From a virus, in IMG/VR virus record IMGVR_UViG_3300027339_000254, positions 1 to 20,453 of that record: DNA of 20,453 bases; one strand, written 5' to 3'. The notes beneath the pieces are model-generated. The model saw only the letters and a list, made by a program, of their open reading frames with translations. It was not told the origin of the DNA and did not search any database. This document shows, one piece after another, positions 10,377 to 13,979 of the stretch (position 1 is its first letter; every line of letters begins with the position of its first letter). The position numbers and the translations under genes are program-made.

Positions 10377-10886
10377 ATGGCATTTTCAAACATTCCCAAG
10401 ACAAAACGTGATGGTGTCATAACCCTATTGGATGGCACTGGAACACCAGTAACACTTGATATTGCATTCGAAGATGGAAACTTTTCATTTTCACAACCAC
10501 AAACCTATTCAGAACTAGTGGTGATGGACCGTGGAAACTTTGCAGCTGTACGCAAGCAAGATCAACAAGCAATCACAGGTTCTTTTGCATTCCATTTCCG
10601 TGAATTTACAAATGGCAGTACTGCAGGTTCTGTGAAAGATTTCATCAACAAGCAAGGTTTCTACAGTGCAAATATCTCTACAGGCTTGGCCGGAGTTCCT
10701 TACGTAGAACACCATTGTGTTGATATAAAGTATGTTGCAGAAGGCACAGACTTTGGCGATGGAGCAGATCACACTGTAACATTGAGCAAATGCGTGTGTG
10801 CTTTGGATTTCAGCGAAGGTGATCCATCATCATTCACGTTGAATTTCACTTGCTACGGTGGTGCAGTATACACTGGCCCTGTATAA
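10377..10886 (+). CDS. Major tail tube protein
   Basis: Probable tube-forming protein of 169 residues. The beta-rich sequence follows the tail-tube pattern: an N-terminal strand pair (DGVITLLDGTGTPVTLDIAF), FEDGNFSFSQPQTYSEL, MDRGNFAAVRKQDQQAITGSF, then VEGTDF-like AEGTDFGDGADHTVTLSKC and the closing FSEGDPSSFTLNFTCYGG. It has the GGAGGCCACATGG start context shared with the capsid gene and a strong hairpin after the stop, both consistent with abundant expression. It is followed by the G/T chaperone pair and the tape measure, the standard order in siphophages. Confidence 0.8.
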   Translation: MAFSNIPKTKRDGVITLLDGTGTPVTLDIAFEDGNFSFSQPQTYSELVVMDRGNFAAVRKQDQQAITGSFAFHFREFTNGSTAGSVKDFINKQGFYSANISTGLAGVPYVEHHCVDIKYVAEGTDFGDGADHTVTLSKCVCALDFSEGDPSSFTLNFTCYGGAVYTGPV

Positions 10887-10965: not shown

Positions 10966-11313
10966 ATGAAAATCAATCTAAAAAAACTTGGTGAACACGA
11001 AATCATTCTTCCAAAGTCTGTTGCAGTATCTTTGGACTTTGTCAGCATTTGGGGCAGTGATTTGAACCGTGCACAACTTGGCAGACTTTGTGCCGGTGCA
11101 ATTGCTGTTGCAGTGGATCACGCAAAATGCTTGCCAGCATATCCAATCCACACAGGTGATCCAATCAAATTTGGTTTCAAAGTGATGGAAAGACTTTTGG
11201 AAGCTGGATGCACACCGGCCGATATCTATGATATTGGAACACAAATATTGCTTGAAATGGTGAAAATCATTCCTAGCGAAGAACAGGTGGAAAACCAAAC
11301 AAATTTTTCATAA
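10966..11313 (+). CDS. Tail assembly chaperone, G-type
   Basis: A 115-residue helical protein in the position of lambda gpG, between tube and tape measure. It is preceded by AGAGGTACACA. The family coats the tape measure during tail assembly and is not in the mature virion. Features seen are an N-terminal basic beta hairpin (MKINLKKLGEHEIILP) and a helical core (RAQLGRLCAGAIAVAV; GFKVMERLLEAGCTPADIYD). Near its end it carries the slippery heptamer AAATTTT in the correct register (A AAT TTT). Most ribosomes should stop at 11313, and a fraction should slip by -1 into the T frame to give a GT fusion of about 186 residues ending at 11525. Confidence 0.78.
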   Translation: MKINLKKLGEHEIILPKSVAVSLDFVSIWGSDLNRAQLGRLCAGAIAVAVDHAKCLPAYPIHTGDPIKFGFKVMERLLEAGCTPADIYDIGTQILLEMVKIIPSEEQVENQTNFS

Positions 11314-11381
11314 GCCGATTTGGTTCCTATGATCTCATGGTGATGCGCATTGCATTGCGATGGGGCCAGGAACCAAATTGG
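11301..11381 (+). promoter_or_regulatory. Programmed -1 frameshift signal (slippery site plus stem-loop)
   Basis: The heptamer A AAT TTT (11301-11307) fits X XXY YYZ in the G frame. After a 7-base spacer (containing the G stop codon) an arm at 11315-11328 (CCGATTTGGTTCCT) pairs with 11368-11381 (AGGAACCAAATTGG): 14 pairs with one G-U, of which 11 in a row are perfect Watson-Crick. The 39-base loop includes a small CGCA/TGCG hairpin. The T frame is open from before 11301 to 11525 and is exactly -1 relative to G. All elements of a frameshift signal are present. Confidence 0.82.
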
Positions 11382-11525
11382 TTCTACACATTGGATGAAC
11401 AAACCAAAATCAATGTACTTGCCGAATATCGATTGTTCCACGAAGATAGTGATAAAATCAAAAAAAGACAAGATCGCAATAAAAGTGATATGATGAAAAG
11501 GGAAATCGAACGGAGAACAGAATAA
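11337..11525 (+). CDS. Tail assembly chaperone, T-type (expressed as -1 frameshift fusion)
   Basis: The T half of the G/T chaperone system, 62 residues if counted from ATG 11337 but more likely made only as the C-terminal part of GT. The frame stays open upstream, reading FFISRFGSYDLMVMRIALRW from the slip site. The core WGQEPNWFYTLDEQTKINVL, followed by a Lys/Arg-rich tail, matches the usual T domain with its Trp/Tyr pair. ATG 11337 lies in the loop of the frameshift stem and has no clear ribosome site, which argues against separate initiation. The stop overlaps the next start (TAATG at 11523). Confidence 0.7.
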   Translation: MVMRIALRWGQEPNWFYTLDEQTKINVLAEYRLFHEDSDKIKKRQDRNKSDMMKREIERRTE

Positions 11526-11992
11526 TGGCAAAGTACACCAGTGGCAATGCAGAAATCCATATTGATCAAGATTTGGGCTTTCTTTCCAAGTTCATATCAA
11601 CTGTATTGCCATCTGCTTCCAAGATAATGGAAGAAGAATTGGAACGTATCGAAAAGGAAGCACAACGTGAGTGGCCAAAAAGAAAACCGATTGTGCGTAC
11701 TGATGCCAATGGCAAGATTGTATTTTTCAAGGAAACAAGCAAAGAATCCTGGAGATTGTTCCAACGTGGTATCACAGTGGATGCCAATGGTAATCTAGTT
11801 GTGTATATGAAAAACACAGCACCATACAGCTATGTTATAAGATTTGGTGAGGATAGCAAGAATGCACAAGGCAAAGAAATCATTCAGCCAAGTGGAAAAA
11901 ACGTATCCCAAGAACTACTGATCAAACCACATCGAAAGAGTGCCAACAAGGTTGTGAAAGCATTGGCCAATGATTTAGAAAAGAGGTTGTAA
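11525..11992 (+). CDS. HK97 gp10-like tail protein
   Basis: A 155-residue protein between the chaperone pair and the tape measure. The N-terminus is an amphipathic helical region (SKFISTVLPSASKIMEEELE), the centre has WPKRKPIVRTDANGKI and an NTAPYSYVIRFGED segment. The C-terminus, QELLIKPHRKSANKVVKALA, is the kind of basic helical ending seen in gp10-like tail completion proteins. The start overlaps the T stop in TAATG. The family is most often placed at the head-tail joint or tail tube end. The name is by pattern resemblance and is tentative, and the location after the chaperone genes is somewhat unusual. Confidence 0.5.
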   Translation: MAKYTSGNAEIHIDQDLGFLSKFISTVLPSASKIMEEELERIEKEAQREWPKRKPIVRTDANGKIVFFKETSKESWRLFQRGITVDANGNLVVYMKNTAPYSYVIRFGEDSKNAQGKEIIQPSGKNVSQELLIKPHRKSANKVVKALANDLEKRL

Positions 11993-11993
11993 C

Positions 11994-13979
11994 ATGGCAG
12001 AAGAAAAGAAAAGCATTGAAATCTCCTATAAAGCCGATATCAATGATCTAAAGAATAAACTTGCACAGATTCCCAATATAACCGGTGAAGAAGCCAAGAA
12101 AATGGTGGCTGCACTTGATAGACAACTCAAGCAAGCCGAAAGTGCATCCAAGAAATCAGCAGAAGCCACCAAGAAGGCTGCACAAGAAGCCGGCAAATCA
12201 GCAGCCAATGCAGCACGTGAGTTTGATCACATGTCAGATGCTGCAAAGAGATCAGAAGAGAGACTCGATATGGTGGCTGAAAAGAGTGGTGATATTGATC
12301 GTGGATTCTCCAGTGTTGGTTTGGCATTGCGTGGTGTGAATCCACAATTGGCAGAAGCTGCAGATGGGCTTGCAGATATGTTTGCAGTAGGAGAAGGTGT
12401 ATTGCTAACCTTCAAATCACTCAATCCGGCAGTGCTTGCTGTTACTGTTGCACTTGGTGCATTGACTCTTGGATACACTGCATATCAAGCACAAGTGGAA
12501 GCAGCTAACCAAGCAATCATTGCACAAAAAGAAGCGATGAAAGGCTTGAACAATGCATTGTTGGATCAACGCAACAATTTTTATGCTGCAAATGATGCAA
12601 TCAATGGTATGCGTGATCAACTTGCACTAGCACGTGGAGAAATCACAAAGTACGAATACGATAGAAAGAAAGCAACATTGGATACCGGTGCACAATTTGA
12701 TACATATATTTCCAAGCAAGAAGAAATCATTGCACAACGAAAAGAGGAACAAAAACTTGTACAATCCATTCGTAATGGCAATGTTCTTTTGTCGGAAGAT
12801 GAAAAGAACAGATTGAAGAATCTGCAATTGTTGGTACCAGGTATTTCACTCACACAAGATTTGTTGGATGGTAGTGCACAATCTTCTGGAGAACTGTATA
12901 AAATAGAACAAGCAATATCTGCAAACATCCAACAACAAAATCTTGGCTTGGATCGATTGAAAACACAAAAGGATGAAGCTGTAACCATTGCAAAACAATT
13001 GGTGGATATAGCAGAATCAGAACGGATAGAAAAGGAAGCACAAGCCAAAGTAGAGAAAAAAATAACAAAAGAAAAAGTAGATCAAAAAGATTTAGAAGCC
13101 GAAAGACTAAAGGCAATTGAAGATTCTTTGAAGGCAGATGCAGAACAACAATCTATTAGAGAATCACATCTTGCAGAACTCCGAAAGATCATCGATGATA
13201 ATATTCTTTCCGAAGACCAAAAGAAAGAAGCAGCGTATCAAAAAGAATTGGAACGCATTGATGAACTTGCAAGAATGACTGGTGATATTGGTTTGGCCAA
13301 TATGGCATTGTGGGCAATGGAACACAAAAAAAAGATGGATGATTTGGAAGCAGAACAGCAAAAAAAGAAAGCAATGTTTGAAGAAGATTTGGCCAATGGT
13401 TCTGCACTTGCTGATCAAGTTGCTGGACTTGCATCTACATATTCCGAACTTGCTGCACAGAAAATGCAAGTGATCAAGGTAGATGCAGAAGAACAAAAGA
13501 AGAAACAAGAAGAATTTGCGAAAATGACAGATTTGGAACGTGAAGCATATAATCAACGCAAGAAGATTGCAATGCGTGCATTCCGATTCGAACAGGCTGC
13601 ATCATTGGCACAAATCGCTTTCAACACTGCAGAAGCAATCACCAAAGCATTGGCATATCCTCCGATACTACGTGGGGCAATGATTGCAACCATTGGTGCA
13701 ACAGGTATGGCCCAAGCTGCTGTTGTATCTGGTAGACAACCACCATCGATGCACACTGGGGGTATGGCACCGGATGAAATGGGTGCAAGAGTGCTCAAGG
13801 GTGAAGCAGTGTTGGATCGTGCAACCGTGCGTGCAATTGGTGGTGAGCAAGGTGTGAAAGACTTGCAACAAGGCAATATGCAAGCAAACACAATCGTGAT
13901 ACAACCGTTCAAACATTTTGGCAGATTCGCAAGGGAAATTGGTTTTCAACCACCGAAAAAAACAGGGATAAAGGTGTAA
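11994..13979 (+). CDS. Tape measure protein
   Basis: Probable tape measure, 661 residues, the helical filament inside the tail tube that sets tail length and enters the host envelope on infection. Residues about 1-100 are Ala/Lys/Glu-rich coiled coil. A strongly hydrophobic segment lies at about 137-164 (PAVLAVTVALGALTLGYTAY), and long charged coiled-coil stretches fill about 330-540. A second hydrophobic stretch near 570-590 (GAMIATIGATGMAQAAVV) is followed by the typical end signature HTGGMAPDEMGARVLKGEAV. At about 0.15 nm per residue the tail would be at most about 100 nm, short for a siphovirus. It follows the G/T pair and precedes the tail-tip genes, as expected. Confidence 0.88.
   Translation: MAEEKKSIEISYKADINDLKNKLAQIPNITGEEAKKMVAALDRQLKQAESASKKSAEATKKAAQEAGKSAANAAREFDHMSDAAKRSEERLDMVAEKSGDIDRGFSSVGLALRGVNPQLAEAADGLADMFAVGEGVLLTFKSLNPAVLAVTVALGALTLGYTAYQAQVEAANQAIIAQKEAMKGLNNALLDQRNNFYAANDAINGMRDQLALARGEITKYEYDRKKATLDTGAQFDTYISKQEEIIAQRKEEQKLVQSIRNGNVLLSEDEKNRLKNLQLLVPGISLTQDLLDGSAQSSGELYKIEQAISANIQQQNLGLDRLKTQKDEAVTIAKQLVDIAESERIEKEAQAKVEKKITKEKVDQKDLEAERLKAIEDSLKADAEQQSIRESHLAELRKIIDDNILSEDQKKEAAYQKELERIDELARMTGDIGLANMALWAMEHKKKMDDLEAEQQKKKAMFEEDLANGSALADQVAGLASTYSELAAQKMQVIKVDAEEQKKKQEEFAKMTDLEREAYNQRKKIAMRAFRFEQAASLAQIAFNTAEAITKALAYPPILRGAMIATIGATGMAQAAVVSGRQPPSMHTGGMAPDEMGARVLKGEAVLDRATVRAIGGEQGVKDLQQGNMQANTIVIQPFKHFGRFAREIGFQPPKKTGIKV

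Follow-up and report, generated by a model that had tools for sequence, protein, structure and literature searches.

Gene order and reading frames at the tail locus

The window, by which we mean the whole of the 20,453-base IMG/VR virus record analysed here, carries on its + strand a run of tail genes in which two short reading frames meet at a slippery heptamer. The first of them is a G-like tail assembly chaperone ORF of 115 aa (10966-11313), named by its position and not by homology, and near its 3' end lies, in its own frame, the heptamer A AAT TTT (11301-11307), followed after a single codon (TCA) by the 0-frame stop TAA (11311-11313). The second, in the -1 frame, is the T extension (11307-11525), which runs for about 72 codons past the slip and then stops; this frame is open from 24 nt 5' of the heptamer, and its stop ends at 11525. 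A -1 slip is predicted to yield a G-T fusion of 186 aa with the junction QTNF-FISR. The first-pass annotation had claimed just this arrangement, with the heptamer in the G frame, the T frame open across it in the -1 register, and a fusion of that length and junction, and all of it was reproduced from the sequence.

Heptamers of the X XXY YYZ form occur in frame 19 times across the annotated ORFs of the window, and only at 11301-11307 do a long -1 ORF (74 codons), a 0-frame stop close by and a highly stable fold coincide. The word AAATTTT itself is scarce in the window, being found once against 10.7 expected from shuffles, but once against 1.8 under a maximal-order Markov model; since this rarity mostly reflects the lower-order composition in shorter words, we discounted it as evidence.

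Upstream of G lies the gene of a probable major tail tube protein of 169 aa (10377-10886, +), identified by model matches and kept in 17 loci; its model is of low confidence (pLDDT 59), and its top PDB matches are mostly phage tail-tube/Hcp proteins, with a best E of 1.3e-3. Downstream, the ORF list and the neighbourhood comparison place an ORF of 155 aa (11525-11992, +) at a conserved position between T and the tape measure gene, whose product of 661 aa (11994-13979, +) matches phrog_1506 with an E of 3.4e-5. That match recurs in 8 of 12 family members, and single members match further tape-measure families. The order tail tube, G, T (GT), 155-aa ORF and tape measure is constant in 17 relatives, as far as their contigs reach, and G/GT is thus found where such genes are expected, between the major tail protein and the tape measure, with one extra ORF before the latter. 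In the relatives, the extra ORF was present in all those inspected, with a length of 155-160 aa, or 140-145 aa in two of them.

Pfam and PHROGs searches with G, T and the tail tube protein gave no match, and the tail tube protein also had none in GenBank phages; tail assembly chaperones are strongly divergent, and a match to a known family is not required of them. The AF2 model of the G monomer is mostly helical and of good confidence (pLDDT 88), and no significant match to it was found in PDB or BFVD. Because the homology and structure searches gave no match, the name of tail chaperone is taken here from the position of the genes together with the frameshift.

Conservation of the heptamer and of the T frame

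A first scan of IMG/VR gave 61 relatives, with identities down to 54%; in all, IMG/VR yielded about 60 distinct relatives, and the GenBank phage set gave none. The heptamer A AAT TTT is in frame in 58 of the 58 first-scan loci that extend to the site. A wider scan, together with one bacterial MAG contig, added about 20 further distinct loci, and the heptamer is present in all of them except L073, where G GAT TTT replaces it and the A-site tetramer U_UUU alone is kept. The exceptional locus (L073:3325-3350), being the sole relative with an altered heptamer and having its T frame still intact, offers a natural test of A-site-only slippage.

This conservation goes beyond the amino acids encoded. 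Among 25 divergent lineages (less than 85% identical), 27 columns of G keep their amino acid where more than one codon could encode it. The codon varies in 25 of them, and the remaining two are the AAT and the TTT of the heptamer, both invariant in 25 of 25 lineages. Outside the site, Asn-Phe pairs in these genomes are spelled nnA AAT TTT in only 7 of 321 cases. The 0-frame stop varies in position, lying 0-3 nt past the heptamer in clade 1 and 18-21 nt past it in clade 2.

In the loci that contain its stop, the T frame runs open for 71-82 codons, and it is under purifying selection, with a dN/dS of 0.09-0.19 overall and of 0.13-0.19 between the window and its relatives; no signal of purifying selection was seen in frames other than T.

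Two side observations may bear on the hosts of these phages. One relative, L063 (PBMU01000001.1), lies on a contig of 14.7 kb assigned to a Rhodospirillaceae MAG, its terminase being 74% identical to that of the window, which is a weak hint of an alphaproteobacterial host, or else the sign of a mis-binned virus. Several palindromes are also scarce in the window (1-20453): TTAA is found 3 times where about 89 would be expected (3 vs 53 with synonymous ORF shuffling), CATG 47 against 218, GCGC 5 against 29, and CGCG 2 against 15. GATC shows no scarcity in the window (112/81), whereas it is strongly so in the clade-1 relatives L004 (1/39), L007 (5/42), L009 (3/28), L013 (1/32), L014 (3/28) and L018 (5/37). 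Such lineage-specific avoidance of palindromes perhaps reflects the restriction systems of the hosts.

The downstream hairpin and its counterparts in relatives

Directly past the heptamer in the window, folding predicts a double hairpin of 29 pairs on the + strand. Its lower stem pairs a 5' arm at 11313-11328 with a 3' arm at 11368-11383 through 16 pairs, and within its loop stands a second hairpin (11333-11365) of 13 pairs, formed by 11333-11346 with 11352-11365. The first-pass annotation had claimed a stem of 14 bp, and the inverted repeat is indeed there (11315-11328/11368-11381; 14 nt, with 13 Watson-Crick pairs and one G-U, 11317-11379), folding having lengthened it to 16 pairs; the loop of 39 bases also claimed is not open, since it forms the second hairpin. 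The claimed spacer of 7 bases (11308-11314), which contains the 0-frame stop, stands as the upper value, the distance to the stem being 5-7 nt and falling to 5 nt if the stem is taken to include its weak A-U and G-U pairs at the base. This is the proper distance for a -1 frameshift stimulator, given that stimulators usually begin 5-8 nt 3' of the heptamer (PMC4066793). A downstream structure is a frequent, though not constant, part of programmed -1 signals.

The minimum free energy of the double hairpin is -39.8 kcal/mol, with a z of -6.1 against dinucleotide shuffles, and it is the lowest among 6790 windows of 84 nt across the contig. Against synonymous-codon shuffles that left both the T protein and the stop of the 0 frame unchanged, the z is -4.4, with about one shuffle in 400 being equally stable. 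We suggest, from its stability and placement, that this hairpin is a candidate stimulator, probably keeping the ribosome in place on the slip site. A pseudoknot between the loop and downstream sequence was also considered and set aside, the match being of just 7 bases and unconvincing. The same holds for an upstream stimulator: the SD-like CAGGTGGA (11284-11291, +; duplex of -5.9 kcal/mol) ends about 10 nt 5' of the heptamer, and it is no more than the coded peptide yields by chance (p 0.25); in 0 of 60 loci did an SD-like upstream stretch exceed the codon expectation.

The claim that the stem is a conserved part of the cassette did not hold, though for programmed -1 signals such conservation is a supporting feature and no requirement. 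Even the closest relatives that turned up, 76% identical to the window in G, do not have the stem, and a search for closer relatives sharing it returned just the identical contig L002. Pair counts on 28 clade-1 sequences give 68% of cells paired, a raw count that favours the window's structure because a single row supplied that structure; under a synonymous null respecting the 0-frame stop, the clade-1 pairing excess is small (mean z 0.68). RNAalifold did not recover the window's stem from the relatives, and no strong structure is common to the consensus folds of the two clades. For one hairpin of clade 2, some compensatory cells were seen, though not clearly above controls.

Strong hairpins differing from that of the window are found in L015 and L017, and in L022, L023, L034, L040 and L054 of clade 2. 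Directly past the slip, 8 of 27 other representatives have a z below -2. Across the 25 lineages, the mean z of 60-nt windows starting 12-42 nt past the slip is near -1.0, a value that is similar at one upstream place in G and turns positive farther down T; a stimulator signal common to the whole family is, on these figures, suggestive and not proven.

How then would the frameshift be stimulated in this family? In the reading that we tentatively put forward, and hold to be possible, the heptamer is fixed and the stimulator turns over, each lineage building its own structure within the T codons, so that replaceable structures may keep or retune the frameshift ratio; the pattern by lineage runs from the double hairpin of the window, through the different hairpins of clade 2, to several close relatives in which none is detectable. 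Rather unlikely, in our estimation, is that the heptamer alone gives low-level slippage, with the hairpin being incidental or serving another purpose and stimulators being unnecessary in the family. In keeping with such an account, the heptamer is near-invariant while the structure is not, no structure beyond codon expectation was detected in the close relatives L004, L009 and L074, and in E. coli many heptamers shift at a low level without stimulators (PMC4066793); the properly placed hairpin of the window, however, goes past its synonymous expectation, and the low z values directly past the slip in other representatives, together with the positive values farther down T, also speak against it.

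A very stable hairpin among tail genes could also be a transcription terminator, an attenuator or an RNA-processing site and not a frameshift stimulator, but we regard this as very unlikely, because no T-run follows the hairpin, the terminator scan of the + strand has no match here, Rfam gives none either, and the hairpin lies within a coding region, beginning at the stimulator distance past the heptamer. As for the further suggestion of the first-pass annotation, that AACCAAA (11293-11299) pairs with TTTGGTT (11319-11325) in competition with the stem and so tunes the efficiency, the seven-base complementarity does exist, but such a switch is extremely unlikely, its ensemble probability being 0.0000 against stem pairs mostly above 0.95, and the AACCAAA arm would presumably sit within the ribosome while the slip site is occupied.

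Proposed mechanism and comparison with known systems

Taken together, the sequence anatomy, the conservation of the heptamer and of the T frame, and the synteny are the observed basis on which we read the site as very probably one of programmed -1 ribosomal frameshifting, of the type known from lambda G/GT. It is hard to credit the alternative that T is made separately, by re-initiation or from an internal start, with the heptamer being merely a conserved Asn-Phe motif: T-frame ATGs do stand 36 and 42 nt past the slip in the window and in most of clade 1, but the T frame of 28 of 60 relatives lacks an ATG within 90 nt of the heptamer, and the amino acids fail to explain the codon-level invariance of AAT and TTT. 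The conservation of the heptamer and its codons, the dN/dS of the T frame and the relatives lacking an ATG thus leave little room for anything other than a programmed -1 slip. The first-pass reading of a tail-chaperone frameshift from G into T is sustained by these lines of evidence together with the synteny, whereas neither a conserved stem in the cassette, nor an unpaired loop, nor the rival pairing as a tuning switch finds support.

In the mechanism that we infer, most ribosomes would read G and terminate at the TAA at 11311, while a minority, their P site holding AAU and their A site UUU, would shift back by one base to AAA/UUU. The slipped ribosomes would then continue in the T frame as far as 11525, producing the 186-aa GT in a small, constant proportion relative to G. 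The 16-pair hairpin topped by the second hairpin, standing 5-7 nt past the heptamer, may pause the ribosome at the slip and so stimulate it, a role that rests on one lineage. By analogy with lambda, the role of G would be to coat the tape measure and that of the T domain to recruit the tail tube.

The lambda heptamer is G GGA AAG, while that of the window is A AAU UUU. In lambda, as in the window, a short ORF lies between the tail tube and the tape measure, with a -1 slip near its 3' end and a T extension, read in the -1 frame, at the C-terminus. Unlike lambda, the window has the extra 155-aa ORF between T and the tape measure and an unusually long hairpin, and, unlike those of lambda and other phage equivalents, its G and T proteins have no detectable homology to known families. 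The slip from lambda G to GT leaves the fusion far scarcer than G, at a ratio of 30:1 that is crucial for tail assembly (PMC5009743), and tail-chaperone frameshifting is described as widely conserved among dsDNA phages with long tails (Xu, Hendrix and Duda 2004, as cited in PMC5009743). The A_AAU_UUU of the window is a member of the H_HH.U_UU.Y class, whose heptamers rank with the most efficient ones listed for E. coli (PMC4066793).

The HK97-like chaperones, a GeneTack cluster of which showed 6-7% frameshifting in reporters (PMC3711429), and TP901-1 gpG/gpT share with the window the operon position and the -1 mechanism; in contrast, the window's G showed no sequence similarity to any GenBank phage, and the TP901-1 heptamer is a different one, GGGAAAG (PMC4493119). 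The -1 signals of dnaX and IS911/IS3 likewise join a heptamer to a downstream structure at 5-8 nt (PMC4066793, PMC3711429), and they differ in their biological role; in dnaX and IS911 an SD-like stimulator stands upstream as well, and the window's CAGGTGGA resembles it, though the peptide predicts as much.

Against these known systems, the mechanism is not new, and the window is a solid fresh example of it in an undescribed phage family, extending the known tail-chaperone frameshift to uncultured phages whose chaperones have no detectable relatives, where the frameshift signal can mark such genes when homology fails. What is modestly novel is the fixed heptamer set against a changing stimulator, and the roughly 60 natural variants, with one heptamer in many downstream contexts, would make a ready series for gauging the weight of the stimulator.
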